From Neisseria animalis (lineage in GTDB: Bacteria; Pseudomonadota; Gammaproteobacteria; Burkholderiales; Neisseriaceae), in contig NZ_LR134287.1 of NCBI RefSeq assembly GCF_900636515.1, forward strand, positions 1,054,001-1,118,000: DNA of 64,000 nt. The letters are read 5' to 3'. Positions 18,533-34,760 of the stretch are shown here, piece after piece. The notes beneath the pieces were generated by a model. The model worked only from the letters and a program-made list of their open reading frames with translations, did no database searches and was not told the origin of the DNA. The translations under genes and the position numbers were made by a program. The first letter of the stretch is position 1, and each line of letters begins with the position of its first letter.

Positions 18533-18591
18533 TTAAAACTCAGATTAATTTTTATATTAAACAAATAATTATCAATATTTTTCTATTTTTT

Positions 18592-18618
18592 TGTCAGAAA
18601 TAATCCTAATCAACCGTC
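18592..18618 (+). promoter_or_regulatory. candidate ECF-sigma promoter of the Met-rich gene
   Basis: TGTCAGA at 18592-18598 and CGTC at 18615-18618 are separated by 16 nt, the geometry of several ECF-type promoters (TGTCA-type minus 35, CGTC-type minus 10). It would start transcription near 18625, about 55 nt before the ATG. No good sigma70 minus 10 competes at this place. Its use by the ECF factor encoded 570 bp downstream is inference. Confidence 0.45.
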
Positions 18619-18681
18619 TAAATGGCAAACGGTTTGTACAGACAAGCTGTTGTTTTGAACAACTTGAAAAGGAATGTAATC

Positions 18682-19134
18682 ATGAAAAAATCAGTTTTAA
18701 CTTTGGCCGCTACCGCTATTTTGAGCTTCTCCCTTCCCGCTACCGCCAAAATGCCGATGGCTAAATCAATGGATATGCAGACGGCTGCGATGCACGGTCA
18801 AAATATGAAACACAGTATGTCCGGTTTCTCTATGGAAAAAAATGCCATGATGATGGACAAGAACATGACTTCCATGCAAAAAGACAATATGGGCATGGAC
18901 AAAAACATGACTTCCATGCAGAAAGACAGTATGGGCATGGACAAAAACATGGCTACCATGCAAAAAGACAATATGGGCATGGATAAAAACATGACTTCCA
19001 TGCAGAAAAACCGTATGAACATGGATAAAGGCATGGATAAGCCGATGAAAAAAACAATGAAAATGAAAAAGTCTGTGCAAAAGCCCATGAGCAAAAATAG
19101 TAAAATGAACAGCATGAAAAACGGCTCAATGTAA
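18682..19134 (+). CDS. secreted methionine-rich repeat protein
   Basis: 150 aa with a clear signal peptide (MKKSVLTLAATAILSFSLPATA, cleavage near residue 22) and AAGGA before ATG 18682. The mature 128 residues hold 35 Met (27 %), many Lys/Asp/Asn, two His and no Cys. Four tandem 14-residue units of the type DKNMTSMQKDNMGM fill residues 59-114; the rest is similar but irregular. It has no hydrophobic core, so it is probably unfolded in the periplasm. MxM and MxxM patterns can bind Cu(I) or Ag(I) or be oxidised as a sink for hypochlorite. It is followed by an ECF sigma and anti-sigma gene, suggesting that it is the regulated output. The function is inferred from composition and context. Confidence 0.85.
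   Translation: MKKSVLTLAATAILSFSLPATAKMPMAKSMDMQTAAMHGQNMKHSMSGFSMEKNAMMMDKNMTSMQKDNMGMDKNMTSMQKDSMGMDKNMATMQKDNMGMDKNMTSMQKNRMNMDKGMDKPMKKTMKMKKSVQKPMSKNSKMNSMKNGSM
18856..19023 (+). repeat. four tandem 42-bp repeats in the Met-rich gene
   Basis: Four in-frame units of 42 bp encode 14 aa each; the units differ at a few positions only. Such an array can gain or lose units by slippage without a frameshift. Confidence 0.9.
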
Positions 19135-19146
19135 TTACCGCCAACA

Positions 19147-19172
19147 ACGGGCGGTATACATACCGCCCGTTT
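19147..19172 (+). terminator. hairpin between Met-rich gene and sigma gene
   Basis: ACGGGCGGTA pairs perfectly with TACCGCCCGT around loop TACA, followed by only TTTC. The short T run suggests partial termination, giving more Met-rich transcript than sigma transcript. Confidence 0.6.
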
Positions 19173-19186
19173 CAGGAAAATCATTC

Positions 19187-19777
19187 ATGTGTACAGATGC
19201 CGTATGGGACAGCAGCAACCTCGAAAAACTCCGCCGGAAAATGCTGCATTTTGCATTTTTACAGCTGAGGAATGAAGAATGGGCAGAGGACGCAGTGCAG
19301 GAAGCATTGACCTCTGCCTATACCAAACAACAGCAGTTCCAAGAAGGTGCGCAGTGGCAGACTTGGGTGTGGGCGATTCTCAAAAATAAAATCCTCGATA
19401 CCCTGCGCCGCAGGCAAGCCGAACTGCAGCATATCAGCCCGAGCGAAGAAGAGCGTATACTCGACGATATATACGATCATGCTTTTAATGATGACGGGCA
19501 CTGGCAGCCGCAATACCGTCCGCAGGCTTGGCAAATGCCTGATGAAGCGGTGCGGCAAAACGATTTTATGCGGATATTGGATTACTGTTTGGAACATTTG
19601 CCTGAACATACCGCCCGTATTTTTATGCTGCGCGAAATCATGGGGCTGGAGGTGAAGGAAATCTGTATGCAGACGGGTATCGGCAGCGACAACTGCTACA
19701 CCATACTCAGCCGCGCCCGTAACGGGCTGCGCCTCTGTTTGCAGAGAAATTGGTTTGATGACAACACTGGAAAATAA
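19187..19777 (+). CDS. ECF-family RNA polymerase sigma factor
   Basis: 196 aa. Region 2 lies at about 12-70: LRNEEWAEDAVQEALTSAYTKQQQF (2.1/2.2), then WQTWVWAILKNKILDTLRRR (2.3/2.4). Region 4 lies at about 125-185: YCLEHLPEHTARIFMLREIMGLEVKEICMQTGI with the helix-turn-helix GSDNCYTILSRARNGLRLCL. A 50-residue acidic linker joins them, and regions 1 and 3 are absent. It directs RNA polymerase to a stress regulon when freed from its anti-sigma factor. AGGAAAA precedes the ATG and the anti-sigma gene follows after 9 nt. It resembles the neisserial RpoE-like ECF factor that controls methionine sulfoxide reductase. Confidence 0.9.
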   Translation: MCTDAVWDSSNLEKLRRKMLHFAFLQLRNEEWAEDAVQEALTSAYTKQQQFQEGAQWQTWVWAILKNKILDTLRRRQAELQHISPSEEERILDDIYDHAFNDDGHWQPQYRPQAWQMPDEAVRQNDFMRILDYCLEHLPEHTARIFMLREIMGLEVKEICMQTGIGSDNCYTILSRARNGLRLCLQRNWFDDNTGK

Positions 19778-19786
19778 GGAAAACAA

Positions 19787-19984
19787 ATGAAGCCCATCAG
19801 ATGCAGGCAGGCGGCAAGGCTGATGCAGCTTGAGTGTGACCGCAAATTGAAAGTCGGCGAAAAAACAGCGTTGATGCTGCATTTGGCAGTCTGTGTACAT
19901 TGCCGCCGTTACCTCCGCCAGCTTGAAATGTTGAACCGCTCTCTCAAAGATTATTCCGCCAGTTTGGAAAACTTTGAGGAATAG
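19787..19984 (+). CDS. small zinc-type (ZAS) anti-sigma factor
   Basis: 65 aa, with no membrane segment and no signal peptide. It holds the ZAS signature H-x3-C-x2-C at His32, Cys36 and Cys39, with further Cys at 6 and 17. One of these is the likely fourth ligand. Such proteins clamp their ECF sigma factor in the cytoplasm and let go when the thiol-zinc site is oxidised or modified. ATG 19787 follows AAGGAAAACAA. It is the downstream partner in the two-gene sigma/anti-sigma operon. Confidence 0.85.
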   Translation: MKPIRCRQAARLMQLECDRKLKVGEKTALMLHLAVCVHCRRYLRQLEMLNRSLKDYSASLENFEE

Positions 19985-20070: not shown

Positions 20071-20100
20071 AAATCCTGCCAAACAAAGGCAGGATTTTTT
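20071..20100 (+). terminator. terminator at the left prophage edge
   Basis: AAATCCTGCC pairs with GGCAGGATTT around AAACAAA and is followed by a T run. It lies 87 bp after the anti-sigma gene. Confidence 0.75.
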
Positions 20101-20197
20101 ATATTCGCGGAAACATCGCACTCCGATTGCTCGGCTCTTTGATATAGCTACGGTAACATGTGCTCACGTTAAATAAAATACATTACAGGAGCGCGAT

Positions 20198-20548: not shown

Positions 20549-21316
20549 TTAATAGTTGCAGATGACCAGCTCACCGCTGGTCTTTTGCGTTTTATCACGG
20601 CCTACTGAATAGGCCAGCTCTAAACGTGTCATGCGGAAATCTTTAAATAGCTCCCGAATGTCTGGGTGGTCGTTGATCGAAAGCATAACCTTGCCTTTAC
20701 TCTCGGCCATCATCTTGGCCAGTAGCTGATACTGCGTCCAATCAAAGGCACGGTCATAACCGGCGGTTTGCCAATATGGTGGGTCAGCGTAGAAAAAGGT
20801 GTGTTCGCGGTCGTAGCGTTTGAAACACTTTTCCCAAGGCTCGTTTTCGACAAACACGCCATTGAGCCGTTGCTGCGCGGCTTTTAGGCGGTCGGCGATA
20901 TCGGCGGCAGTAAAGCCTCGGCCGGTGGTGGCTGTGCCGAAATGTTGGTCGACGGTTTTTCCACCAAATGCGGTGTGTTGCAGATAAAAGAAGCGAGCGG
21001 CTCGCTGGATATCGGTCATCACATCGGGCGGTGTAGATTGCAGACGGGCTTCTTCGCGGCTGGTCAATGTCCACTCAAATTGGCGCACAAACTCGTCAAA
21101 ATGGTGCTGCACCACGCGGTATAGGTTGATGAGCTGACCGTTGATATCGTTGAGCACTTCGCACTTGGCCGGTTGCGGCCGCATGAAGAATAGTGCCGCA
21201 CCACCGGCGAAGAGCTCAACGTAGCAGGTATGCTCGGGAAACATCGGAATCAGGTGTTTGGCCAAACGGCGTTTACCACCCATCCAGGGAACAATTGGCA
21301 GAGGCTTTTGAGTCAT
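20549..21316 (-). CDS. D12-class DNA N6-adenine methyltransferase
   Basis: 255 aa from ATG 21316. The order is that of the Dam/DpnM (alpha) group: the SAM-binding motif PWMGGKRRLAKHL at 10-22, then ELFAGGAALFFMRP at 34-47, a variable target-recognition part, and the catalytic DPPY at 178-181. It should methylate the exocyclic amine of adenine in a short site that I cannot predict. It lies 50 bp downstream of a Com homologue, the place that the mom DNA-modification gene holds in phage Mu. This suggests late, Com-dependent translation to protect packaged phage DNA. Confidence 0.88.
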   Translation of the reverse strand: MTQKPLPIVPWMGGKRRLAKHLIPMFPEHTCYVELFAGGAALFFMRPQPAKCEVLNDINGQLINLYRVVQHHFDEFVRQFEWTLTSREEARLQSTPPDVMTDIQRAARFFYLQHTAFGGKTVDQHFGTATTGRGFTAADIADRLKAAQQRLNGVFVENEPWEKCFKRYDREHTFFYADPPYWQTAGYDRAFDWTQYQLLAKMMAESKGKVMLSINDHPDIRELFKDFRMTRLELAYSVGRDKTQKTSGELVICNY

Positions 21317-21366
21317 GATTACTCCTAATATATAAGTATCGGTACTCAAAGGCACTCAGGATTGAA

Positions 21367-21474
21367 TTATTGGGTTTTAAACTGATTGAGCAATTTGCAG
21401 CGCGGACACTTGATTTCAAAGCAGCCACGGCCAACAGCCAACAACTTAAAACAATTTTTGCAACGATGTTTCAT
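21367..21474 (-). CDS. com: Com-like zinc-finger translational activator
   Basis: 35 aa: MKHRCKNCFKLLAVG, then RGCFEIKCPRCKLLNQFKTQ. Two CxxC knuckles (Cys5/Cys8 and Cys23/Cys26) with the RCKNC...IKCPRC pattern are those of Mu Com. Com unfolds a stem-loop over the start of the downstream modification gene and turns its translation on. The gene is shorter than Mu Com (62 aa) but holds the complete finger. It lies directly upstream of the adenine methylase on the same strand. Confidence 0.85.
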   Translation of the reverse strand: MKHRCKNCFKLLAVGRGCFEIKCPRCKLLNQFKTQ

Positions 21475-21566
21475 TTTTCACAGATTCCTTGTCGTTAGTG
21501 ATAAAATCACCGCACCTCGCGAGGTACGGTAAAAAAGGCTAACGCAGGTCTAGTCTGCTGAAGCTG

Positions 21567-21598
21567 GCGCGGAGAACGGTGGTAGGACACCGCCGCGC
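21567..21598 (-). terminator. long GC-rich hairpin after the tail gene
   Basis: On the plus strand GCGCGG-AGAA-CGGTG, loop GTAGGA, CACCG-CCGCGC folds into a stem with a one-sided bulge, 11 nt beyond the stop of the minus-strand tail gene. There is no U tract, so it may instead protect the mRNA end. A second palindrome, ACCTCGCGAGGT at about 21514, follows before com. Confidence 0.4.
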
Positions 21599-21609
21599 AG
21601 CCGTTTTCT

Positions 21610-22821
21610 TTAACTAATCGAATCCTGCCACTCTTCAACATACAGATAAATTGAGTAGCTGGTGTCGATTTTGGTTTTGTCAAAATTCGAGCGGATCATC
21701 ACGCTATTCTCAGTTTTGGCGCATATATTATGGTTCAAAAATAAAACCGCCAACGCCGGATGCTCGACTGAAACATACACCTTAGGGTCTTTATAGGTAT
21801 TTTGAAAATTTACCTTCGCCCAGGTGTACCCGCCATCTGCCCACATACTTTGAGTCAAATGGATTTTTTCACACTTTCTCAGGCCGAGAAGGTTTCTTAA
21901 ATCAGCAATTTCGGCAGTAATCTGAGACTGAGATTCAGATAATGCTGTCAATTCAGCTATTTTTTGCTGTAGCTCAGCCAATTCACTGCTTTCTTCAGCT
22001 TCAGCTGCCGCTTGCTTTGCCTTTTCCAACTCAACCGAAATATCAGCGATTCGCTGGTCTAACGCTTCAATTTCGCTGCTTTCTTCAGCCGCAGCAAATT
22101 GAATCCGTAAAATTTCCAACTGGCTGGTTAGTGACTTAACCGCCGCATCTGCCGCCACCAATTGGGTTAACGCCTCTTCAAGCGCAGCTTTCTGCTTGGC
22201 CAATTCAACGGCATGCTCAGAAATACTTGCCTGGTCGCGCTCCAACAACTTCAGACGGCCTTCCAATGAGCCTGCAGACTCAATAGCAGCCTGCGCCACC
22301 GACAACTGTTCTGATAACGCCGCAATTTCAGCACTTTCATCGGCCAGTTGCACATCCGACTCCAACTGCTCAATCTTAGCCAATAAACCAGCAATACCCG
22401 CCGAATCAGGGGCGGCGGCTTGGCCAGACAAGACAATAATTGCCTGACCGCTCACATCCACATCCACTGTCTCAACAACCGGCGCATCGCTTGAAAGCTG
22501 AACCGGTATATCAGTCACGCACGGTTTAACCTGAATCTCGCCTTGCAGATATGTTTTTACGACGCTACCACAAACGGCTCTCAAGTCATATTTAGCTCTT
22601 AGCCAGGTCAAATCACGGGTTACTGCCGCAGGGAAAAGCAGTGTAACCGCATTCCCTGCCACAGTAATTTCCGGACGAATCACCGAGCCGTCACCGGTGA
22701 CAATATCCATCTGAAACGTAGCTTGAGATAAATCAATAGACTCTGAATCAGCGGTCAACAACACTTTAAACAAGTGCGTGTCGCCTTGGTAAAGCAAGAA
22801 ATTATGGGTTTTAGGTGCCAT
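21610..22821 (-). CDS. phage tail/baseplate protein with BppU-like N-terminus and long coiled coil
   Basis: 403 aa. Residues 1-105 form a beta-rich domain (FLLYQGDTHLFKVLLTADSE...LQGEIQVKP) like the N-terminal domain of baseplate upper proteins. Residues 150-310 are a coiled coil rich in Ala, Glu and Leu, with a recurring element of the type ESSEIEALDQRIADIS. The last 90 residues are beta-rich with Trp and Tyr and may be the receptor-binding tip. It is the last gene of the tail operon, after the peptidase-like gene. Assignment rests on position and shape, not on a named family. Confidence 0.65.
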   Translation of the reverse strand: MAPKTHNFLLYQGDTHLFKVLLTADSESIDLSQATFQMDIVTGDGSVIRPEITVAGNAVTLLFPAAVTRDLTWLRAKYDLRAVCGSVVKTYLQGEIQVKPCVTDIPVQLSSDAPVVETVDVDVSGQAIIVLSGQAAAPDSAGIAGLLAKIEQLESDVQLADESAEIAALSEQLSVAQAAIESAGSLEGRLKLLERDQASISEHAVELAKQKAALEEALTQLVAADAAVKSLTSQLEILRIQFAAAEESSEIEALDQRIADISVELEKAKQAAAEAEESSELAELQQKIAELTALSESQSQITAEIADLRNLLGLRKCEKIHLTQSMWADGGYTWAKVNFQNTYKDPKVYVSVEHPALAVLFLNHNICAKTENSVMIRSNFDKTKIDTSYSIYLYVEEWQDSIS

Positions 22822-23283
22822 CTAACTTGCCTTTTTAACAAATTTGTCCAAATCATTGGGGGACAGTCGCCACGGCTCGGAAAAGCCCAAGACATGACCG
22901 CACCATTCGGAGCAGAACCACTTGTCCGGCCGATTGCCGAAGCGCAAGACCACACCAAGTGAGCCGAGTACATCGTACGACTTGCCTTGTGTCATCAGCC
23001 AAATCATCTGCAACTTGGCAGTTAACACGTCTGTTGCCGGAAGCTCAATTAAATCCCACTTATCCGACGGCAAGCGCATGGTTTTGCTGCGCACACCGCC
23101 ATCACGCAGGCTTGATGAGTAGCACTCAAACACACCGTCACCCAAGGCCACGGCAATTTCGCAATGTGAATAAATACCGCGCGTTGCTTTGCGGATTACC
23201 CAATCAGCAACGCGCATGGCCAACGCCTTAGGGGTGCGGCCTGATTTTCGGCCTTTGTAAAGCGCCAGATAGATTTTGCTCAT
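22822..23283 (-). CDS. permuted NlpC/P60 (YiiX-like) papain-fold protein
   Basis: 153 aa. A circularly permuted papain-like pattern is visible: YSHCEIAV (His near 41) precedes and WFCSEWCGHVLG (catalytic Cys near 123) follows. Such proteins are common in phage tail modules and may cut peptide or lipid-amide bonds at the cell envelope. Its start overlaps the stop of the preceding tail-fibre assembly gene within a DUS (AGGCCGTCTGAATG). The reaction is unknown. Confidence 0.7.
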   Translation of the reverse strand: MSKIYLALYKGRKSGRTPKALAMRVADWVIRKATRGIYSHCEIAVALGDGVFECYSSSLRDGGVRSKTMRLPSDKWDLIELPATDVLTAKLQMIWLMTQGKSYDVLGSLGVVLRFGNRPDKWFCSEWCGHVLGFSEPWRLSPNDLDKFVKKAS

Positions 23284-23895
23284 TCAGACGGCCTCCGGCG
23301 CGGTGAACTCGATTTTAATTTTATCGAGCGCAGCAACCGTTTTGGCCGACTCAATCTTGCTTTGCAAGGCTTGGCGCTGGCCTGCAACATGAGCCGACAG
23401 GGCGGAATACGCCAAGGCTTTGCGCAAAGCGGCGGCCTTGAGCTTGTCGGGTTCCTCGCCACGGGCGGCGGCGATGCCGTCTAAAACGGGTGTAGGAGCG
23501 GCGGGGTCTGCCTCCCATGCTTTGGCCTCGGCGGCCTGCAGCGGCCACGTCTGCACCTCAAAGGCTGGCAGCTTGTCGGTTTCGGCGGCCGCGTCGATAT
23601 AGGCTTGGGCGGCGGCGTTGAGTGCCGCCAGCCTGCCGGCGCGGGCTTTGGCCAAGGCGACGGCCTTGATTTCGGCGGCCAGCTCTTTGTTTTCCACCCA
23701 CGCGCCATCCACCCACTCATGCGCGGCGCTCGGGCGTGGGTGCACGGCCAAGTCGTCGGCGATATGGTGGCCGAGATTCAGCGCCGCCAGCAACTGCGCG
23801 TGCTGTTCGGCGGTGATTTCTTGCGCATCGGGTGGCAACTGCTCATGGATTTCGTCATCAAAAAATGTTTTTTGGGATTTACTGTAAAAAATCAT
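23284..23895 (-). CDS. tail fibre assembly (Tfa-like) protein
   Basis: 203 aa. It starts with the characteristic MIFYSKSQKTFFDDEIHEQLPPDAQEIT, followed by EQHAQLLAALNLG, then an Ala-rich helical C-terminal part (residues 75-195). Tfa proteins are chaperones that help fibres trimerise. It lies directly behind the fibre gene on the same strand, as in Mu and P2 relatives. Confidence 0.8.
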   Translation of the reverse strand: MIFYSKSQKTFFDDEIHEQLPPDAQEITAEQHAQLLAALNLGHHIADDLAVHPRPSAAHEWVDGAWVENKELAAEIKAVALAKARAGRLAALNAAAQAYIDAAAETDKLPAFEVQTWPLQAAEAKAWEADPAAPTPVLDGIAAARGEEPDKLKAAALRKALAYSALSAHVAGQRQALQSKIESAKTVAALDKIKIEFTAPEAV

Positions 23896-23912
23896 TTGGT
23901 TATCACCTTTTT

Positions 23913-26420
23913 TTAGTGGCCGATGGCAATAATACTGATTAGGCCGGCCTGGGCGTTTGCGTTCCAGCCGATGGCGGCGGCGGTGGTGTTCTCCTTGTTC
24001 CAGGCGGTGGCGTGTATAGGGCTGATGCCCTCCTGCGTGTCGTTTACCATAGCCATTAAAACCGCGTTGGGAAACGCGATCGGCAGCGCGGCCATGCCGT
24101 TGTCTGCGCCGTTAACGTTGATGGTAAGCCATTGGATAATCAGGCCGCTGGGCAGTTTTTGGTAACCGTTGCCGCCCGCTGCGGCGGCGCACATCTGCCG
24201 AACCCATGCGGTGGTGGCGAGGTTGCCCGAGTTATCGTTAAGCGCCGGCGTGTTTGCCGACGCCAGCCCGTTAACCACAAGATTGCGGCTGGCCGAACCC
24301 TGGGCGCCGACGTTTAATGCGTTGATGCGGCCGTTATCGGCGGTAAATCCCAGCAAATCCACGCCGCCCGCACCCGCAGCGCGGTTACGGTAAGCCGTTT
24401 TAGCGTTGGTGATGATGCCGCCGATGAGCACGTTGCTGCACGAGGCCGCGACATCCAGCGCAAACACGCCCGCATCAACGGCAGACTGCGCCAGCAAAAT
24501 GCTGTTGCCATTCACCCGCAGGCCGGCTACATCAAGCGCGCGGATACTGTTTGCGTTGGCGGCGTTGGCCACATTAAAAAAGTGGTTGCCCTCAATCACC
24601 ACGTCGGCCATCTTTTGCAGATGAATCACGCCACCACGGCAATCGCGCGCAAAATTGGCGGTAATGTAGATTTCGCTCGACGTGCCAACCGAACCATCGT
24701 ATATATCGTTTTTAGAAGATAAAAACTCATACTCCAGCCGGTTGCCGATGTTGCCGGAAACTTTAACTTTAGAACTATACTCAATATCAATAAACCGGTT
24801 GGCCACATCAAAAATATTATCTGCCACGGCGGCATTGTGCACGCCTTGCAGCTTCAGCAGACTTCCCGTTTGCGTGTTGCCAAATACGTTACTTAAGATG
24901 CTGATATTTTTAAGCTTCTCCCACGCGCCGGTATAGCCATTGCCCCAAATCTGCGTGAGAATCTGCTCCGCCACAGTATCGCCGAAATGATTACCCGTAA
25001 TATGGTAATCGCGACCTGCTTCCGACGGATTGTTTGTTGGCTGGAGCCACCAAATATAAATGTTTCGGTGGCAATGCTTAAACGTATTATTAACGATCTT
25101 AACGTTATCCCACAAAAACGGGCGCACGCCTGCAAAACCGCAATACTCGATTAAGTTATCCTCAACGATAATATTATTGTGATGTTGTACGTTGCGCGCG
25201 GCATAGTGGCCGCCGACGGCACAGCCATAGCCCTGCCCGAACAAGCCTGTATCATCATCAGGATTTTTGCTAAAAACGTTATTGCGCACAACAACGTTTT
25301 CACACGGATCGCCTTTCAGACGGCCACCGGTAAATGTACCCGGCACGTTATCATCAATTTGAATCGCCTCGGAAAAACCACGGTCAATATCACTGCCGGG
25401 CGCGGTGCCGTAAACCGTTGAAACCTCTTTACTAAATCCCAAAAACTGATTTTTTTCAATGGTTACGTTTCGGCACGCCGATAAATCAATGGCGTGGTTG
25501 CGGATACAGTCGACAAACCGCACCCCCGAAACCTCCAGCCCGTCAATATAACCCAACGAAAAGAAATTAACCGATGACCATTGCTCTTTTGCGTTACTGT
25601 TAAATTCGCCACCGAAAATTTTAATGTTTCTGCAAGGGTTTTCTTGAGACGAATTATCGTTAATAACCAATCCGTTATATAACATCGCGCCTGACGTGTT
25701 GCGTAAATATCTCACGCCGTCAACACTCTCAAACTCGAGATTATCGCCAATACGGATCAAGCCGTTAAGATAGTAATCCCCGGGTATATCACTCAATACT
25801 TTTGGGATTTTTGCCTCATAGACAAATTTAAACAACGCATTGATTTTATTCAAGGTTGTCGGCGCATTTTGTTTTCCAGCCAATACGCCAAAATCCGAAA
25901 ATCGACAAACGCCATCCAGCAGACGCCGCCAACGCACACCATTGGCTGACACGATAATCGTGCCGCCGTTATCGGCGCTTGTTGTGTCAGATTGGTCGGC
26001 AACAAACATTCCGCCGCCAATGCCAGGGGTGTTGACGTAGTAGCCATTTACGTTAACGTAGCCAGTGCTTCCTGGATATTCTCTTAATTCATCAATACTA
26101 CCTACACTTACGCTGGCTGCCGCGATTGCCTCTAATACACCCTTGGGCGTTGCAGCATTCGATTCATCGCTTTCGGATAATTCACTCACCAATTGGACAA
26201 AGCCAATATTTTCCAGCGTACCTTTTTTATTTGATAATTCATCAACTTTTTCTAAAGTTTTTTCGTGGGCTTTTCTCAGCCACTGAGTCCGCTGGCCAAG
26301 CTGTTTAGCTTGACGGTTAGCAACACCGTCCGAACCACCCGTGACAGGGTCGGTCATCTCAATTTGATATAAATCATCCACCCACTCAGGTGTCACTTTA
26401 TCTTCTTGAATCGTTGCCAT
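23913..26420 (-). CDS. phage tail fibre/spike with beta-helix
   Basis: 835 aa. The N-terminus (TPEWVDDLYQIEMTDPVTGGSDGVANRQ and QLGQRTQWLRKAHEK) is the usual phage attachment domain. Residues about 200-640 are full of short N-x-F/I repeats (such as NVTIEKNQFLGF, VVVRNNVFSKNPDD, NISILSNVFGN, VVIEGNHFFNV) typical of right-handed beta-helices of carbohydrate-binding or -cutting spikes. The end (NGYQKLPSGLIIQWL...ISIIAIGH) is a common C-terminal tip domain. It would decide host range. Its stop is 17 bp before tfa. ATG directly abuts the stop of gene I. Confidence 0.85.
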   Translation of the reverse strand: MATIQEDKVTPEWVDDLYQIEMTDPVTGGSDGVANRQAKQLGQRTQWLRKAHEKTLEKVDELSNKKGTLENIGFVQLVSELSESDESNAATPKGVLEAIAAASVSVGSIDELREYPGSTGYVNVNGYYVNTPGIGGGMFVADQSDTTSADNGGTIIVSANGVRWRRLLDGVCRFSDFGVLAGKQNAPTTLNKINALFKFVYEAKIPKVLSDIPGDYYLNGLIRIGDNLEFESVDGVRYLRNTSGAMLYNGLVINDNSSQENPCRNIKIFGGEFNSNAKEQWSSVNFFSLGYIDGLEVSGVRFVDCIRNHAIDLSACRNVTIEKNQFLGFSKEVSTVYGTAPGSDIDRGFSEAIQIDDNVPGTFTGGRLKGDPCENVVVRNNVFSKNPDDDTGLFGQGYGCAVGGHYAARNVQHHNNIIVEDNLIEYCGFAGVRPFLWDNVKIVNNTFKHCHRNIYIWWLQPTNNPSEAGRDYHITGNHFGDTVAEQILTQIWGNGYTGAWEKLKNISILSNVFGNTQTGSLLKLQGVHNAAVADNIFDVANRFIDIEYSSKVKVSGNIGNRLEYEFLSSKNDIYDGSVGTSSEIYITANFARDCRGGVIHLQKMADVVIEGNHFFNVANAANANSIRALDVAGLRVNGNSILLAQSAVDAGVFALDVAASCSNVLIGGIITNAKTAYRNRAAGAGGVDLLGFTADNGRINALNVGAQGSASRNLVVNGLASANTPALNDNSGNLATTAWVRQMCAAAAGGNGYQKLPSGLIIQWLTINVNGADNGMAALPIAFPNAVLMAMVNDTQEGISPIHATAWNKENTTAAAIGWNANAQAGLISIIAIGH

Positions 26421-26999
26421 TTATGCCATCCCAAAATTGTAATCGCCGTCAAAATTGACTTTGCCGTTGTAATACAGCGGCGTATCTTGATAATCCAAAC
26501 GCACCAATACACAGCGGGCAGGTGCGAAGGCCGGTAGGGTTTCCCGCAACAGGCTCGCTTCCGTATTGGTAATCGGTCGGTTGAAAATAATTGAGTAATG
26601 CGCCCACAAACGGTGGTCGCCATACATATAAATACCTTTGTGATTAATACTGCCGTCGTAGATTTGGCCACCCAATCCCTCAATCAGCTTGATTTCGCCA
26701 AAACCTAAACGGCGGCAGATTTCACGCACCGCCCAGGGTGTGCCTTTTCGGCGGTGTAAAAACACGGCATCTTTAATCAGCTTGCGCCGTGTTTTATTGT
26801 CTTTGGCCAGCCAGTAGCCGTCCGAACCAACCATACTGCGGCTCTCCGCCAGCAGCTCAAGGTGGTTGTTATCCACTTGTTCGAGTAAACGAGGCATGAG
26901 CTTGGTTAAGGCAAGCTTGCGATAGCCAAGACTGAGATTGGCCAAGCGTGTAAAGCGCGGGTCTTGGGCGATAATCAAGGCGTATTTGAGCTTAGCCAT
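26421..26999 (-). CDS. phage tail protein I
   Basis: 192 aa from ATG 26999, overlapping the end of gene J by 8 bp. Family features are LANLSLGYRKLALTKLMPRLLEQVD, FLHRRKGTPWAVREICRRLGFG (the conserved kernel of gpI) and FNRPITNTEASLLRETLPAFAPARCVL. It builds the baseplate wedge together with J and W. Confidence 0.85.
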   Translation of the reverse strand: MAKLKYALIIAQDPRFTRLANLSLGYRKLALTKLMPRLLEQVDNNHLELLAESRSMVGSDGYWLAKDNKTRRKLIKDAVFLHRRKGTPWAVREICRRLGFGEIKLIEGLGGQIYDGSINHKGIYMYGDHRLWAHYSIIFNRPITNTEASLLRETLPAFAPARCVLVRLDYQDTPLYYNGKVNFDGDYNFGMA

Positions 27000-28158
27000 C
27001 TTGTTGCTCCATATCGACCGATACGCTAAACGATACGCACCGCGCCCATTGGTTAGGGGCAATCACGATGACATCGCTGTCGCGTAACTCGCCGCGCTCA
27101 TTGGATAAAATAACGTTGTACACGCCACTAACCTTTAAGGCCGTCTGAATATCCAATGGCACCACATCTTTGCCTAGCTTGGCATAGCGGGCAGTTTCGT
27201 AGTCTGACCAAGCTGCGCTGGCAGCGGCTAAAACTGATTTAGAATCAGCACCTTTGAACAATACCAAGCGGGCATCGATTTTGTATTCCACCACTTCGGG
27301 CGCGCGTACAATCACAGTGTCACAGAGCGGCCGCACCGTCTCATCGCTCAATGCCACCGATACCTTGTCAATCAATTCTTGGCGGGGCAGACCGTCCGTT
27401 GCCAGCAGCGTAACGGCCACCGTGCCACCAATCGGATTACCGGCAGAATCAACATCGTTGCCGACATGGACACCGGCAATGGCCTGCGAAACACGGCGGG
27501 CATAATACTCATAGGCTTTTTTCGGACCACCTACTGAAAACGCCTCAAAAGCCAGCAAAATCCGCTCGCGATAAGCATCGTCGCTCTCAATGATGACGCC
27601 GCCGGAGGGGACAGTAATATTGCTGACCTTAACGTCGATATCAGCATGCAGCGGTTTTGTCAGCGTGTTAATTTGGCCGATTGCCCAGCCGTTTCCGGCC
27701 GTGCCGGTTGTAGTGCATTGCGCCGGTAAATCAACCGTATTTCGGCTAGACGATAAAGTTGCTGATGTGGTTGTTTCAAAAATCAACTCGCCCACAATGA
27801 CTTGAGTGCCGGTCGGAATAAACACCGGCTCCATGGCCAAGTTGGCCTCACAAGAAAATCGCAAGGTGGTTAAGGCAGGTTGAGCCTCTAAGCGCGGTGT
27901 ATTGACATCATCGCCACACAAATCCAACATCAAGCCGGTTGCAAAGCGGACGTGCTGCTGGCGATACGCCTCATTCACTTGCTGCCGAGTCAATGATTCT
28001 CGGTAGGCGTATACGTTAATTAGCAAACGCTCAATATGCGCCGGTTGCAGTGCCTTGCCGCTGTCTTGTTCATACTTGGCAATAATCTCGGCCAAGATGG
28101 TCGACAAATCATCAGCCACGACCTTGACGTCTTCACGCTTTAAAGTGCTTAAATCCAT
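26992..28158 (-). CDS. baseplate J-like protein
   Basis: 388 aa, normal for gpJ. Visible are an N-terminal helical part, FIPTGTQVIVGELIFETT, the conserved SGGVIIESDDAYRERILLAFEAFSVGGPKKAYEYYAR segment (about 195-230) and VNVTLLATDG-like strands. It forms the baseplate edge. It overlaps gene I downstream and gene W upstream by 8-10 bp. Confidence 0.9.
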   Translation of the reverse strand: MDLSTLKREDVKVVADDLSTILAEIIAKYEQDSGKALQPAHIERLLINVYAYRESLTRQQVNEAYRQQHVRFATGLMLDLCGDDVNTPRLEAQPALTTLRFSCEANLAMEPVFIPTGTQVIVGELIFETTTSATLSSSRNTVDLPAQCTTTGTAGNGWAIGQINTLTKPLHADIDVKVSNITVPSGGVIIESDDAYRERILLAFEAFSVGGPKKAYEYYARRVSQAIAGVHVGNDVDSAGNPIGGTVAVTLLATDGLPRQELIDKVSVALSDETVRPLCDTVIVRAPEVVEYKIDARLVLFKGADSKSVLAAASAAWSDYETARYAKLGKDVVPLDIQTALKVSGVYNVILSNERGELRDSDVIVIAPNQWARCVSFSVSVDMEQQDG

Positions 28159-28526
28159 GCTGCATGCTCCAAATTCAGCGTTGTGCCGTAGATTTCACCG
28201 GATACGTCATCTGCCACGCGCCAGCGCACGGTCATGGTGATGTGCGGGGCATTGCCGCTAAACGTCACTTCATCCACCACTGCCCGCGTTTCCCAGGTCT
28301 GAATGGCCAAAACCACTTCGCGCACGATATTTGGCACAAATACGTCTTCCGGCGTGTCAATGTAGTCAAAATGATTGCTGCCGAAATCGGGGCGGGTCAC
28401 ATCTGAGCCTTTGCGGGTGGACAAGATGTTGTGGATACACAAGTCGATATCGTCCACGCCCTGCGCCAGGCCGCTGCCACCGGGGGCAAGCTGCCAGTGC
28501 TTGGAAATGGGCGTATCGAATTGCAT
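28149..28526 (-). CDS. baseplate protein W (GPW/gp25 family)
   Basis: 125 aa. Typical pattern: DDIDLCIHNILSTRKGSDVTRPDFGSNHFDYIDTP and a C-terminal beta strand set. It is the T4 gp25-like wedge protein. Its Shine-Dalgarno AGGG lies inside a hairpin just upstream (28527-28560). Confidence 0.9.
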   Translation of the reverse strand: MQFDTPISKHWQLAPGGSGLAQGVDDIDLCIHNILSTRKGSDVTRPDFGSNHFDYIDTPEDVFVPNIVREVVLAIQTWETRAVVDEVTFSGNAPHITMTVRWRVADDVSGEIYGTTLNLEHAAWI

Positions 28527-28560
28527 AAAAAAATCCCTGTATCGTTTTGATACAGGGATT
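28527..28560 (-). promoter_or_regulatory. terminator hairpin covering the gene W ribosome-binding site
   Basis: On the minus strand AATCCCTGTATC pairs with GATACAGGGATT around a 5-nt loop and is followed by seven T, and the gene W ATG comes at once. The only plausible Shine-Dalgarno (AGGG, 8 nt before ATG) is in the 3' arm. The hairpin can therefore both stop transcription after gene V and block translation of W. Confidence 0.65.
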
Positions 28561-28604
28561 CTGCCTGAAGCCGCATAAAGCTGATTTTAATGCGTTTTAA
28601 AACC

Positions 28605-29183
28605 TTATTTCGGCGGCGATGTTGTGCCACCCGAGTCGCCGGTGTGCGTGTGACCAGGTAAGCTGATGCCTTGGGATTTAATATCGCCAGTAGCCTCAAT
28701 TGCGCCATCAATTTTGGCCGCCGCACCACTACCACCTTGACCAGACATGCCGGCGGTATAAGTAAACAGACCTTCAACCGTCAAGGTTTTTTTCACCACG
28801 GCATCGGCATCAATTGTCACCACGCCGTCGGTTTTGACCAGTATATCTCCCGTTTTGCGGTCGTGTTCAATAATCGTACCGTTTTTAAAGCGGCGTACCC
28901 ATTTGTCTTTGCTGCTGGCCGGTGGCTTATCGGCTGCGCTGTAAATAGCGCCAATCACGCAGCCGTTTTCGCCACGGGCGTCCAGCAGGCAGACAACTTG
29001 CTCGCCCTCGTCGGGCAGGCTGTAAAACTGATTGCCACCGGCGGCCGGTGTAGCCATAGGCAGCCAGTCGGTTTCCATGTCTTCTAGGGCAGGGATTTTG
29101 ACGCGCAGATTGTGACCGGCTTCATCCACCGCCGATACCACGCCGAATTGCAGGGTCGCCCCAAAATCATGCGTTTGCTGCAT
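28605..29183 (-). CDS. baseplate assembly protein V
   Basis: 192 aa from ATG 29183, overlapping the end of gene D by 17 bp. OB-fold region: RFKNGTIIEHDR, then repeats of the TVEGLFTYTAG type, and the C-terminal HTHTGDSGGTT spike tip (His-x-His metal site). It forms the central membrane-piercing spike. An open frame runs 10 codons further upstream, but MQQTHDFGATLQFG is the family start. Confidence 0.88.
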   Translation of the reverse strand: MQQTHDFGATLQFGVVSAVDEAGHNLRVKIPALEDMETDWLPMATPAAGGNQFYSLPDEGEQVVCLLDARGENGCVIGAIYSAADKPPASSKDKWVRRFKNGTIIEHDRKTGDILVKTDGVVTIDADAVVKKTLTVEGLFTYTAGMSGQGGSGAAAKIDGAIEATGDIKSQGISLPGHTHTGDSGGTTSPPK

Positions 29184-30267
29184 CCTGCTGCTCCTCATCA
29201 TCGATATACTCAATCATCTTAATTTCCAGTTCGGTGGTGTAGCCGCTGCTGCGGCGATACTCATGCCGCGCCTGTTTCACCAGATACTTACCGGAAAACT
29301 TACCCATGTCTTTCAGGCGCACGGTTTGACCGGCCACCAGCAGCGCATTACCAAACAATGTGATGTTTCCGGCGCATTGGTCGTCTTGCGCATCAGCCAA
29401 AGCCGCATCGGCGCGGGCATTGAGCTGCGTTTGGCTTTCGCCTTTATTCGGCACGATTTTCAAGGTGTCGCCGGTGTGGCCACGTTTGGATTTCGGGCGC
29501 AGAGACTTGGTTTTACGCGTAGCCGACACCGTTTTCTTGGTTTTCGGGTCGTAGCCGCGCATTTCTACTTGGGTCGGTACACCTTTAATCAAATCGCGCA
29601 GGCGGATTCGGGTCATGTCTTCAGGACTCAATATCACCACCGCTTCACGCTCTTTCAGCCTGACGTTGTCGGCGAATACCAGCTTATTCCCGACAACCTT
29701 AAAGGTGTGGCCATACTCTTTGGCCAAACGGCTCAAAAACTCAATATCGCGCTCCTGATACTGGGTCACACGCTTGATTTTGATGTCTTTCACTTGCCCA
29801 GCGGGCTGCAATTTCAGATGGCCTGCCACTTGGCGCACAATCTCGGCCAGCGTGGTATTTTCATACGCACGGCCTTTTAAAGTGCGGCTGGCCTTGGTAA
29901 TGCCCGCCGACAACGCCTTCAGGCTCACCGTTGATGGTGGGTGGTTGTATTCAATTTCCGCAATCTCAAAGCTGCCCAAATCTACCAAGCCGGTAAATTG
30001 GTCGCCCAAGCTCAATGCCAGCGCATCGCCTTGCTCCGGATACCAGCCACGCAGCCAGCGACCGTCCACATCTTCAAATTCGACCTGCAGCTCATCAGAT
30101 TGCCCCTCGAGGTAATCTGTGTAAACAAATGAAATCAGATAGGGGGCAATGTCGCCTGTAATATCCTTGTTTTCGTAGCTCAATGTGAAATCCGGCTTGG
30201 TTACCGGATGAGTGCCACCCGTACCGCCTTGAGCGGCCAAGCCGGACAAGAAACCTTTAATATCCAT
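29167..30267 (-). CDS. late control protein D / baseplate hub
   Basis: 366 aa, normal for gpD (T4 gp27-like hub). Visible are PDFTLSYENKDITGDIAPYLISFVYTDYLEG near the start, the QYQERDIEFLSRLAKEYGHTFKVVG segment (about 165-190), and a C-terminal region with LLVAGQTVRLKDMGKFSGKYLVKQARHEY. It lies between X and V as in P2-type tails. Confidence 0.88.
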   Translation of the reverse strand: MDIKGFLSGLAAQGGTGGTHPVTKPDFTLSYENKDITGDIAPYLISFVYTDYLEGQSDELQVEFEDVDGRWLRGWYPEQGDALALSLGDQFTGLVDLGSFEIAEIEYNHPPSTVSLKALSAGITKASRTLKGRAYENTTLAEIVRQVAGHLKLQPAGQVKDIKIKRVTQYQERDIEFLSRLAKEYGHTFKVVGNKLVFADNVRLKEREAVVILSPEDMTRIRLRDLIKGVPTQVEMRGYDPKTKKTVSATRKTKSLRPKSKRGHTGDTLKIVPNKGESQTQLNARADAALADAQDDQCAGNITLFGNALLVAGQTVRLKDMGKFSGKYLVKQARHEYRRSSGYTTELEIKMIEYIDDEEQQDAANA

Positions 30268-30277
30268 TTCAACCCTT

Positions 30278-30496
30278 TCAGCGCATCCAAGGCGGCAAAT
30301 CGGCCTGACTGTTTTTCGGCTTGCTTTCTAGCACCGGCACAAACACCGTCAAGCCGCTGACAAACTCTTCGGCCAACGGTAAATGTGGATTGGCCGCAAT
30401 CAGGCCGTCAATCAGCAAAGCGTTGCCGTAGTGTTTATGGGCAATCAAATCCCAGCGGTCACCATCTTTGGTCGTATAGCGTAAAACCGCGCTCAT
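30278..30496 (-). CDS. tail protein X (LysM-like)
   Basis: 72 aa. The sequence RYTTKDGDRWDLIAHKHYGNALLIDGLIAANPHL is the small LysM-like fold of gpX. It overlaps the end of gene U by 4 bp (ATGA type). Confidence 0.88.
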   Translation of the reverse strand: MSAVLRYTTKDGDRWDLIAHKHYGNALLIDGLIAANPHLPLAEEFVSGLTVFVPVLESKPKNSQADLPPWMR

Positions 30497-31389
30497 CCAT
30501 CACTCCTTGTCGCCAGCCAACCGGTCAACTTTTCAACGGCCGATGCACCATTAGCCACCGCTTCGGAGGCCGTAGTAATTGAGTCTCCAGCCGCATCCAA
30601 CCAGCCGCCGATAGTTCCGCTCTCGTAACCTGCACGCATGCTTGCCACCGTACTGCCGAGCGCATTTCCGGCTGCACCAAGCTGCGTGGCCATTTCAGCC
30701 GCGCCGGATAAATCACCCAACAAAGCCGTTACTTCCGGTAAACCATTGAGCTTGCCCAATACATCACCGCCCACGCCGAGCGCATCGCCGATTAAATTCA
30801 GCGCACCGGCGGAATCATTGCGCAACTCTTTAGCCGCCGCGATGATGCCTTGCATTTGCTCTATGCCGTTTTCTGCCGCACGATAGACTTTCACACCGGT
30901 TTCAACCGCCTGCATCACATCTGCCGCTTGCGCCTGTACCGATTCGGGCAACAGTGAGAGCAATGGGTTTTGCTTGCCGCTGATAATCGCCGGAGTCGGC
31001 AGCGGATTATTCGGGTCACCGACAAATTCCGTCAGTTCGATATCCAGCTCACGCGCGGCCGTGCGGCCTTTACTGTCCTGAATCAAGGTGCGCTCGGTCA
31101 GGCTCTCAATGACAAACCAGCCGACAAAGCGGCCTGAGCCATAAACCAGCGACACCGCCTGCTGCGCTTCCAAAGCTGCCAGCAAACCCTTATAAGCCGT
31201 GTCGGGATTGCCCAACATCCAATGCAGTTTTAAGCCAAAGCGCAGTGTGGTTAGGTCGTTTTCCATCGCCTGTAAGCGCGGGCGGCCTTTTAATACCTCG
31301 TGCTTGGCAAACTTGGCCGAGTGCTGCGCTTCCAAGCTGGCAAAGCTTTGCAAGGTTTCAAACCTCACATCCCCCAACATTGCATACAT
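30493..31389 (-). CDS. tail protein U with extended C-terminus
   Basis: 298 aa, of which the first 130 are gpU-like (MLGDVRFETLQSFASLEAQHSAKFAKHEVLKGRPRLQ and SGRFVGWFVIESLTERT). The remaining part is Ala/Gly-rich and helical and longer than in P2 gpU. It caps the tail tube. It abuts the tape-measure gene, sharing one base. Confidence 0.82.
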   Translation of the reverse strand: MYAMLGDVRFETLQSFASLEAQHSAKFAKHEVLKGRPRLQAMENDLTTLRFGLKLHWMLGNPDTAYKGLLAALEAQQAVSLVYGSGRFVGWFVIESLTERTLIQDSKGRTAARELDIELTEFVGDPNNPLPTPAIISGKQNPLLSLLPESVQAQAADVMQAVETGVKVYRAAENGIEQMQGIIAAAKELRNDSAGALNLIGDALGVGGDVLGKLNGLPEVTALLGDLSGAAEMATQLGAAGNALGSTVASMRAGYESGTIGGWLDAAGDSITTASEAVANGASAVEKLTGWLATRSDG

Positions 31390-32971
31390 CAGAAAGCCCT
31401 CCGCTCACGGTCGGCCATCATGCGGTGAAACAACGTTTCAAATTCGCGCAAGCCCATTTGCAAGGCCGTCTGAATTTGAGCAGGGTCTCCGCCCGGCGCG
31501 TTGATGGTCGGGTTGAAATGAATGGTCACGCCACCGGCAGCCGCAGCCTGTCGCGCTTGCTCGAAATCGGCGCGGCTGCCGGATACCCGCGCGGCCACAT
31601 CGGCACGCAGCTGGCCGATACGGCTTCCGAAACTGTCTTTCAGACGGCCTGCCCATGCACCGACCGTACCGATTGGCCGGTTGGCCGTGCGACGGATACC
31701 AATATCCAAACCTTGGGTAATAAAGCCACCAAAACGTCTGAACTCACGACTCGGCGAATGAATATCCATCACCGCTTGGAATTTGGCCTTAATCGAATTA
31801 CCGATAGAGGCAATCGTGTTATATACCGCTGCGGCTGCTGATTTAATGCCGTTAATCAAACCCTGAATCAACATACGGCCAAAGCCGGTAAAGGTTGACG
31901 GCAAGGTGACACCAAACCAGCTCATCACACTGGCAAATGCCTGATAAAACAAACCGAGTGGCGAAAAATTGAGAATAGTGGCCGCAATATTACCGATGCC
32001 GCTGCTGAAGAAAGCCGTGATTTGCGCCCAAAGTCCGCTGAAAAATATCACCAAGCTTTGCCACAACGCTTTTGCACCGGCCACCACTGATGCCCAGTTG
32101 TTGTAGAGCATGTAAGCGGCAACGGCCAACAGGCCAAGGGCAAGGAAAATCGGATTGGCCATTAAGAAGGCACCCAATTTCAAAAAATGCCGAACCGAGC
32201 ATGGGCAGAAAACGGATAACAGATATAATGCCCCGCCCAAAAAACGACATGGTTTTACGAACTGCTCCCAATAAGGAAATCATTGGAGAAACGGCCTTGG
32301 CTGCAGCTATCCAACCCATCGAGAACACGCCCATTACGGCAGTAAACGCAGAAAAACCGATAATCAACCCGGCAATCACGCCGCCAATCAACAACAAGCC
32401 ATCGACGACTTCCGGATTCTTAGCCGCAAAATCGGCTAAATTTTGGGTAAGATTTCCTATAAATGCGGAAACCTTATTAATCACGGGTAGCAGTCGGTCT
32501 CCGACTACCGTTTTCAGCTCAGCAAAGCCGTTTTTCATCAGCGTTAGGCCGTTTTCAGTAGTGGCCGAACGTGCAGCAAATTCTTTCTCCATGCTGCCCA
32601 TAAATTCAGGCTTGCCGCCTTTACCGGCTTTTTTCAGCTCATCAATGGACTTCTTATAGGTATCCAAGCCACCAACCAACGCAGCCACATCGTCGGCATA
32701 TTCCAAGCCGAACAAATCGACCAATGCGCCCATCTGGTTTTCTTTTGGCAGCTTTTCAATCTGTCTCAGAAAATCCATCAGAGCCTGCTCGCCGTTTTCG
32801 GCAATCGCTTTTTTCAGGGCTTTGGCATCTGTACCCATACCCTCCAAAACCGCCTGAAATTTCTTTCCCTGCTTGTCGGCCGTCATCAGCTTGGTCAGCA
32901 TACCGTTGATGGCCGTACCCGCTACTTCCGGTGTTTTGCCCAAGCTGATAAAGGCGTTGGATAAAAAGGCG
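31389..32971 (-). pseudogene. tail tape-measure protein (TP901 type), truncated and frameshifted
   Basis: The minus-strand frame runs from about 32971 (FLSNAFISLGKTPEVAGTAINGML) through the TP901 core to PMLGSAFFEIG. It then shifts by one base in a run of six A (plus strand 32182-32187), after which the other frame continues LGAFLMANPIFLALGLLAVAAYML to the stop at 31389. With five A the two parts join as one protein. The N-terminal several hundred residues are missing because the gene is cut at about 32971, where sequence of a terminase gene on the other strand begins. It is thus a double pseudogene of about 520 remaining codons. Confidence 0.85.
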
Positions 32972-33237
32972 TGCCACGCATTCCCGACACACGCACCAAA
33001 GGACAAGACGGCAGAAAACGCCACGGCGACGCGGCGATTGCCTTGGTGTTGGCGCATTACGCGAGTCGAGAGCTGAATGCCGGGCCAGTACGCGTGGCCA
33101 GCCGAAAAATCAAACGCCCGCAGCAGACTGACAAACTGATTTACCCGTTATTGTGGCTGGTAGGTGTTTTTATCCGCGTTACAAGCCTAAAAAAACAGCG
33201 CAGATGGTATTACTGTGGCTGCGTTCTATTCCAATAA
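32971..33237 (+). pseudogene. C-terminal remnant of Mu gp28-like terminase large subunit
   Basis: Only the end is left: PDTRTKGQDGRKRHGDAAIALVLAHYASRELN, the usual last part of the large terminase (KRHGDAAIA is a hallmark). The start is cut at about 32970 by the junction with the tape-measure gene. The last 40 codons do not look like the family and the normal stop may have been lost. Confidence 0.75.
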
Positions 33238-33287
33238 TTTGGCATTCCGTTTTCAATTTGATGTATGAACCTTAAGGCCGTCTGAAA

Positions 33288-34760
33288 ATGAAAAAACCGC
33301 ATTTCAAACTCAAAACCCAACACGGCAGCGTAACCTTCAAACCCGAGGATTTAAGCGGCCACATCGCCGTATCGCGTCAGTTTTTAAACGGCTTCGGCGG
33401 TTGGCTGCCGAATCCCGACCCGATTTTGCGCAAGATGGGCAAACAAATCTCTGTTTACCGCGAATTGTTGCGCGATGAGCTGGTCGGCAGCTTCGTGCGC
33501 CGCCGTAAAGCCGCCGTTGCCCGCCTGGATTGGAAATTAAGTGGCGATGAAGTCGATGAGCGGGTATTGGATTTTGTCGAAAATTGGCTGGTTGCGGATG
33601 TTGATGTGTATAAATTTTGCAAAGACATCATGAATGCCGCTTTTTTCGGTTATCAACCGATTGAAATTATCTGGCAGAAAGGCAGTCAATGGCTGCCGTC
33701 TGAAATCGTAGCCAAGCCGCAAGAGTGGTTTGCCTTTAATGATGACCGAGAATTGATTTTCATCGAAAACGGCTTGAGCCAAGAGCCGCTGCCGCCTTAT
33801 AAATTCCTTTGCCCACGTCATGAAGACGACTATCTTAATCCCTACGGTTTGGGTGATTTGGGCTTGGTCTTTTGGCTGGTTACGTTCAAGCGCGGCGGCC
33901 TGAAATTCTGGGTGAGTTTCACCGAAAAATACGGTGCACCATGGTTGATTGGCAAAGAGCCGCGCTCCAACACCCACAGCGACACCGAAAAGCTGCTTGA
34001 TGCGCTAGAAGCCTTAATCAGCAATTCGGTCGGCACGATTCCGAACGATTCGAGTGTCGAAATTCACGAAGCCAGCGGCAAATCATCATCGGTAGATGCT
34101 TTCGACAAGCTGCTGAAAGAGTGTAAATCCGGCATCAACATCGCCTTGCTTGGCCAAGACCAAACCACCGACAAAGAAACCAACCATGCCAGTGCCAGCG
34201 CAGGCTTGGAAATCGCCGATGATATCCGCGACAGCGACCGCCGTATTGTCGAAGCGGCGTTTAATGAGCTGATTGAATGGGTGGTATCGCTGAATTTCGG
34301 CGATGTGGTTTGCCCAAAATTCGAACTGTTTGAAAATGAAGAATCAGGTACAAAAGAGCGTGCCGAGCGCGACAATATGCTGTTCGGTGCGGGTGTGAAA
34401 TTCACCCCGCAATATTGGAAACGCACTTATGGTTTGGAAGACGGCGATATCGTTGAAGAAGATGCCATCACCCCGACCGCTGCTGATTTTGCCGAAGGTT
34501 GGGATGGTGCAGAAACCGATGCGGGCTTGATTTTAGACACGCTCGCGCCGAATACAGCCGAGCTGAACCAGCAAGGCCGCAACCTGACTGCCTTATTGGT
34601 GCAGGATTTGCAGCGCGGCGAAACCGAAGACAATATTCTCGACCGCTTGGCCGAGCAGTTCCCGAATATGGATGACACCGCCTTGCAAAACGAACTGGCG
34701 CGTGTGATTTTCCTGTCCGGTTTGGTCGGACGCATTGAAGCGGCGCAGGAGATGAGCTGA
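33288..34760 (+). CDS. portal protein, DUF935 / Mu gp29 family
   Basis: 490 aa, full length. Typical stretches are FGGWLPNPDPILRKMGKQISVYRELLRDELVGSFVRRRKAAV near 35-75, KFCKDIMNAAFFGYQPIEIIW, and WVSFTEKYGAPWLIGKEPR. The dodecameric portal sits at the head vertex. A DUS (AGGCCGTCTGAA) directly precedes ATG 33288. The last base of its stop is the A of the gp30 start codon (TGATG). Confidence 0.92.
   Translation: MKKPHFKLKTQHGSVTFKPEDLSGHIAVSRQFLNGFGGWLPNPDPILRKMGKQISVYRELLRDELVGSFVRRRKAAVARLDWKLSGDEVDERVLDFVENWLVADVDVYKFCKDIMNAAFFGYQPIEIIWQKGSQWLPSEIVAKPQEWFAFNDDRELIFIENGLSQEPLPPYKFLCPRHEDDYLNPYGLGDLGLVFWLVTFKRGGLKFWVSFTEKYGAPWLIGKEPRSNTHSDTEKLLDALEALISNSVGTIPNDSSVEIHEASGKSSSVDAFDKLLKECKSGINIALLGQDQTTDKETNHASASAGLEIADDIRDSDRRIVEAAFNELIEWVVSLNFGDVVCPKFELFENEESGTKERAERDNMLFGAGVKFTPQYWKRTYGLEDGDIVEEDAITPTAADFAEGWDGAETDAGLILDTLAPNTAELNQQGRNLTALLVQDLQRGETEDNILDRLAEQFPNMDDTALQNELARVIFLSGLVGRIEAAQEMS

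Follow-up and report, generated by a model that had tools for sequence, protein, structure and literature searches.

What is a small, methionine-rich secreted protein doing at the head of an operon that otherwise encodes an ECF sigma factor and its anti-sigma? The operon lies in a 64,000-nucleotide stretch of Neisseria animalis DNA (the window), taken from a genome that is a single contig of 2.24 Mb and that we compared within a genus set of 46 Neisseria genomes, N. animalis (G000) included. It is read on the plus strand in the order promoter, Met-rich gene, hairpin, ECF sigma, ZAS anti-sigma and terminator-like site, with the following features:

18542..18592, plus strand: A/T-rich stretch 5´ of the -35 element, resembling an UP element (sequence; excerpts of PMC2893595)
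18593..18601, plus strand: -35 element GTCAGAAAT, 7/9 positions of the published GTMAGBWTT
18615..18622, plus strand: -10 element CGTCTAAA, 8/8 positions of the published CGTCTAAH
18628, plus strand: predicted +1, an A; the published +1 is an A six bases 3´ of the -10 element
18669..18673, plus strand: ribosome-binding site AAGGA (sequence, by eye)
18682..19134, plus strand: Met-rich protein gene, 150 aa (ORF; secretion predicted)
18682..18747, plus strand: signal peptide, 22 aa, predicted cut after ATA (by eye)
18853..19029, plus strand: tandem repeat, 4.2 copies of a 42-bp unit (14 aa, MDKNMTSMQKDNMG; TRF)
19146..19171, plus strand: 11-bp hairpin between the Met-rich and sigma genes (folding, -21.1 kcal/mol, z -4.72)
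19187..19777, plus strand: ECF sigma factor, 196 aa (TIGR02943, Sigma70_r2 and Sigma70 r4_2 over cut-off)
19787..19984, plus strand: ZAS anti-sigma, 65 aa (NF052368 over cut-off; Cys6, His32-x3-Cys36-x2-Cys39)
20071..20105, plus strand: intrinsic-terminator-like site at the operon end (10-pair stem 20071-20097, then a T-rich tail)

No Rfam match was found between 18200 and 20300.

The regulatory half of the operon is the most readily placed. The sigma factor scored 217.5 bits against TIGR02943 (cut-off 162.2) and the anti-sigma 56.3 against NF052368 (cut-off 50), the latter falling just below the cut-off of Pfam zf-HC2 (20.6 against 22.2). With Cys6, His32, Cys36 and Cys39 all in place, these matches support a pair of the neisserial sigmaE/MseR type. 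As described in the excerpts of PMC2893595, the meningococcal system (NMB2140-2145) likewise closes its operon with an ECF sigma and a ZAS anti-sigma, uses the same promoter type, and has in MseR the N-terminal Cys and the His-x3-Cys-x2-Cys arrangement seen here. Unlike that system, the operon in the window has no MNIO gene, the N. animalis genome gave no PF05114 match, and its msr gene is short and lacks a sigmaE site. A scan of the genome contigs for the sigma returned one distant sigma locus. We also noted a second region-4-like sigma match at G000:C1:1152388-1152534, with 25.6 bits (26.3 with its neighbors) against a Pfam cut-off of 25.7.

The promoter would tie the Met-rich gene to this sigma factor. 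Published neisserial sigmaE promoters read GTMAGBWTT, 12-13 bases and CGTCTAAH, with an A six bases further on as the start and an A/T-rich region upstream (Hopman et al., PMC2893595, in excerpt). The site at 18593-18622 agrees with this consensus at 7/9 positions of the -35 and 8/8 of the -10 element, with a spacer of 13. Scored with a matrix made from 32 distinct sites (45 in total) upstream of relatives' sigma operons and msr genes, it reached 23.1; no other site on either strand of the window exceeded 12.2. The training sites had a median of 24.0 and a lowest score of 18.7; because the window site also matches the pattern used to choose them, the rank within the window is the fair measure. 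Across the whole genome, the pattern GWMAG-N15-17-CGTCWAA gave three matches (13 in a reversed control), the other two lying within ORFs, and a stricter pattern matched the promoter at 18593-18622 alone, with one match in the control. With the patterns tried, which would miss weaker or variant sites such as that of N. chenwenguii discussed below, this is the sole sigmaE-type site outside ORFs in N. animalis. The earlier note's proposal that such a promoter heads the operon thus stands on the consensus fit and on a wide margin over any other site in the window. A search for a sigma70 promoter for the Met-rich gene found no plus-strand site 5´ of the predicted start. The hairpin that follows this gene, previously called weak, is strong (-21.1 kcal/mol, z -4.7), though without a long U run, and we propose that it acts as an attenuator or mRNA stabilizer.

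Which gene normally occupies the place between this promoter and the sigma gene? The sigma was present in 36/46 genomes and an MNIO family match in 34/46, with no MNIO match among the 10 sigma-less genomes, four of which are <90% complete. Of the sigma loci, 34 were mapped by script, that is, all except those of N. animalis and G007, and in 32 of them genes for an EGKCG-repeat peptide and for MNIO stand 5´ of the sigma, with a DUF2063 partner in 18 of the 32 as judged by a crude text pattern. A sigmaE-type site lies upstream in 28/34 mapped loci, all 28 among the 32 with EGKCG and MNIO genes. There were two exceptions to this order. G021 (L051) has sigma and anti-sigma genes but no MNIO match in its genome, and the gene upstream is comEC-like by eye; in G006 (L074, L080) the MNIO cluster is about 12 kb from the sigma and anti-sigma genes, on the opposite strand, making it a second split operon. 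Comparison of gene order across Neisseria therefore bears out the suggestion that the Met-rich gene occupies the usual partner's place. The identity once given to that partner, DUF2282, does not hold: PF10048 was found in 0/46 genomes, and the EGKCG peptide and MNIO genes are found instead.

This partner gives the locus its likely context. EGKCG peptides are thiooxazole peptides of the copper-binding group known as Buf_EGKCG/oxazolin or captophorins (PMC12452194, PMC13097082, PMC13419390, all in excerpt), which includes a product of N. gonorrhoeae and for which there is copper-detoxification evidence, and whose physiological role needs further study according to the same authors (PMC13097082, excerpt). 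Captophorins, gonophorin among them, and the window protein have in common an exported repeat peptide, candidate sulfur ligands and a position before the sigma gene (excerpts of PMC13097082, PMC12452194 and PMC13419390). However, captophorins use modified Cys, whereas the window protein has Met, a mature part without Cys and a genome without an MNIO match.

The Met-rich protein is unusual for its composition. Its mature part, cut by eye after ATA from the 150-aa ORF at 18682-19134, is 128 aa long and contains 35 Met and 23 Lys but 0 Cys, in agreement with the original count. The 14-aa repeats were recovered as well, with TRF reporting 88% matches over the 4.2 copies of the 42-bp unit at 18853-19029. 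The Met fraction, taken on a 170-aa upstream-extended form of the ORF, was 21.8%, the highest of 113 six-frame window ORFs of at least 100 aa (mean 2.5%). Among the four full repeat copies, 10/42 columns vary and none of these falls within the 12 shared Met-codon columns (hypergeometric p 0.02). The test was post hoc and the copies are not independent of one another, so the evidence for retention of Met is weak. The spacing of Met in the mature part (8 MxM, 5 MxxM and 9 MxxxM) could suit Cu(I). There are also three MxKD motifs, and, as with MrpX and BcrX, a Met-rich repeat protein with a signal peptide (by eye) adjoins an ECF sigma. No Pfam or NCBIfam family passed its cut-off, and no MXKDX-type NCBIfam match was found up to E 10 in a search that had no positive control. 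None of the 296 candidates in a protein-database search passed E 0.001, and the search missed the protein's own copy too; the same database does contain the sigma of this genome, so this search is uninformative. A genus search returned the protein itself alone below E 0.02 and missed the ORF of G007, which indicates little power. A single-sequence AlphaFold model had a mean pLDDT of 54.8. The signal peptide and high Lys content would fit several functions, and the promoter might simply serve the sigma operon while the protein has mainly some other role, such as metal delivery or a contribution to the surface or biofilm. We consider this quite unlikely, as both the place and the promoter coincide with those of the captophorin and msr genes of relatives.

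A second species provides a partial parallel. G007, which is N. chenwenguii by protein identity, has a 117-aa Met/Lys-rich ORF with a signal peptide directly 5´ of the sigma gene. Met accounts for only 10 of the 96 residues of its mature part. The ORF runs into the start of the sigma gene, and its last part, before that start, contains a hairpin, called without a shuffle control. The site ahead of it scores 6.5, a poor match against 23.1 in the window. The captophorin/MNIO cluster of the same genome is at a separate locus and has a sigmaE-type site scoring 22.8, and trx-MsrAB also has one (23.1). Behind the MNIO-DUF2063 genes, in the place of the sigma in most relatives, is an integrase-like ORF (by eye; L123, 5518-6066), which may mark how the operon was split. 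The Met-rich proteins of the two species are weakly alike, with 26/1000 shuffles as good for the mature parts and 45/500 with the signal peptides kept, and a protein-database search with the N. chenwenguii protein returned itself alone. Common descent of the two genes, for which position and signal peptide would be the basis, is not proven. These comparisons bear on whether the Met-rich gene is a coincidence, that is, a recent low-complexity ORF of no set role between a promoter and a sigma gene whose autoregulation alone matters. Such an account would fit the tandem low-complexity repeats, the absence of recognizable homologs in searches two of which had little power, and a counterpart in N. 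chenwenguii that is much poorer in Met. We think it unlikely, however, given the signal peptide, the ribosome-binding site, the absence of Cys, the Met codons that are constant among the repeat copies (p 0.02, post hoc), and the Met/Lys-rich ORF with a signal peptide at the same place in the second species.

If the protein is exported and functional, its Met residues could serve either as an oxidant sink or as metal ligands, and the methionine sulfoxide reductases bear on this choice. MsrA-family matches were present in all 46 genomes, and 34/36 sigma-bearing genomes have an msr frame that, at 524-588 aa, is as long as trx-MsrAB (the thioredoxin-like part was read in G007 alone, by eye); the exceptions are G013 and N. 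animalis. In G013, also sigma-bearing, the msr gene is apparently split in two frames (G013:C1:879379-879830). The single MsrA-family match of N. animalis is a 321-aa MsrAB in which Pfam recognizes PMSR and SelR alone, with no visible signal peptide. A sigmaE-type site was found at 17/30 msr loci examined (the best-scoring, one per genome, of the 46 genomes), with none upstream of the one msr locus of N. animalis, and MsrP (PF00174) was found in 0/46 genomes, N. animalis included. With no MsrP and a short MsrAB without a signal peptide, there is therefore no recognizable periplasmic recycler for a Met sink in N. animalis. The interpretation from which we started is thus supported in part. The sigma/anti-sigma pair, the sigmaE-type promoter and the Met-rich gene in the partner's place stand; control of msr by the sigma finds no support in N. 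animalis, whose MsrAB has no sigmaE site, nor does recycling by Msr enzymes, and DUF2282 drops out.

A sacrificial oxidant sink, in which periplasmic HOCl or other oxidants oxidize the Met-rich protein and it is renewed by synthesis, as for Azospira MrpX and Brucella BcrX, is nevertheless a close rival to a copper function, if a fairly doubtful one. In Brucella, an ECF16 sigma induced by hypochlorite switches on a neighboring operon that encodes a Met-rich MXKDX protein along with an MsrQP-like system, BcrX being part of the hypochlorite defense (PMC8315932, excerpt). The closest relative of neisserial SigE is said to be RpoE2 of Haemophilus influenzae, which controls msrAB together with a DoxX/DUF2063 cluster when the cells respond to hypochlorite and so speaks for hypochlorite as the inducer; for Neisseria, H2O2 is reported as an inducer (PMC7907618, excerpt). 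The three MxKD motifs of the window protein also fit, since BcrX and MrpX share with it both these motifs and a repeat protein adjoining an ECF sigma. However, the BcrX and MrpX systems belong to another ECF group, have the membrane anti-sigma NrsF where the window has a 65-aa ZAS protein, and have an MsrPQ-like partner (PMC8315932, excerpt), none being found for the window protein. The sink is weakened by the lack of a periplasmic Msr partner in our searches (MsrP in 0/46 genomes, and an MsrAB of 321 aa in which no signal peptide is visible). It also sits less well with the copper-peptide gene as the replaced partner, and with the meningococcal sigmaE, which did not respond to the oxidants tested in the excerpts of PMC2893595.

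The copper reading is slightly ahead, since the partner that appears to be replaced is a copper-peptide gene and no recycler is required. The operon, we tentatively suggest, is a mobile, self-amplifying sigmaE unit in which an unmodified thioether buffer, most likely one for Cu(I), takes the position of the captophorin. Gene order, the promoter match, the absence of a detectable MNIO, trx-MsrAB-length protein or MsrP, and discordant sigma and trpE trees are the computed results on which this model draws. In the model, a cytoplasmic Zn/thiol anti-sigma would hold the ECF sigma until thiol oxidation or metal displacement releases it, and the freed sigma would transcribe its own operon from 18593-18622. 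Thioethers of the periplasmic, Met/Lys-rich first product would then sequester Cu(I), replacing the Cys-based thiooxazole captophorin, and the hairpin may keep sigma output below that of the Met protein. Export, regulation in vivo, the copper ligand, the role of the hairpin and the functional replacement itself are parts of the model that we infer. Another small ECF regulon over MNIO-type operons, one of them with DoxX, is that of Caulobacter sigF, the ECF16 prototype. SigF controls DUF2282-MNIO operons as well as YedY, and it responded to Cr and Cd but not to the oxidants tested; it differs from the window operon in its six-helix anti-sigma NrsF, its DUF2282 peptides and its YedY partner (all from excerpts of PMC3511200).

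How did this version of the operon reach N. animalis? The window sigma shares 70% identity with that of N. chenwenguii, 54-59% with those of two genomes from another genus and 40-52% with those of the remaining 34 Neisseria in which a match was found. Its protein-database cluster consists of a single member, with N. chenwenguii next at 71%. In a tree of 41 sigmas, which carries a long-branch warning, the two species group together (100/96) and join the two genomes of the other genus (95/82), outside the clades of other Neisseria. The trpE tree, built on the single marker used and taking 46 of 80 genomes with a match, places N. animalis with G009 (97/81) and N. chenwenguii in another clade. For groups named after the trees had been inspected, the AU test rejected a sigma grouping of N. 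animalis with 17 species from the clade in which trpE places it (p 6e-33). On trpE it rejected N. animalis with N. chenwenguii (p 1e-7) and these two with the two other-genus genomes (p 1e-8). The sigma unites two species that trpE separates, and it was therefore probably exchanged horizontally, which would be the simplest account. Ancient duplicates with losses, or trpE transfer in N. animalis or N. chenwenguii, could also give discordant trees. In G009, the genome closest on trpE, neither sigma nor MNIO gave a match and the msr frame is only 331 aa long. These absences, which are weakened by the ~390 contigs of G009, fit a loss of the old regulon with a later gain of this unit in N. animalis. 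The G009 contig reads trpE, gph and then an acetate-kinase-like ORF; no empty site was found at the trpE loci of 14 other species of the genus.

Directly to the right of the operon, at 20552-34757, are genes of prophage type for a DNA methyltransferase, tail spike/fiber, baseplate, tape measure and portal. The operon has its own terminator-like site, and no long repeat around it is prominent, the longest exact match being 15 bases. It may still be prophage cargo, although this is unproven. The whole window contains 24 copies of AGGCCGTCTGAA and 7 of ATGCCGTCTGAA, which we take to be uptake-sequence words, with the 10-base core present 40 times.

In the titles and abstract openings of the open-licence literature, we found no neisserial Met-rich/sigma unit of this kind. 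In two ECF groups, the same place can be filled by either kind of product, a peptide of the thiooxazole type or a Met-rich protein. It is possible, though we would not press the point, that sigma-linked thiooxazole peptides and Met-rich proteins are interchangeable and have been swapped at least twice, once within ECF16 (Caulobacter versus Brucella and Azospira) and once with neisserial sigmaE, and that in the latter case a mobile sigma unit carried a version that needs no enzyme into a lineage from which the original regulon was missing. If the Met-rich protein does take over the work of the captophorin, an unmodified low-complexity protein could, under the same sigma, replace a modified peptide that is costly, along with the iron enzyme for it. 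The exchange would be a natural swap with which to test whether captophorins serve against copper, chlorine or both, and a species with both versions, such as N. chenwenguii (G007, named by protein identity), would permit a direct comparison.
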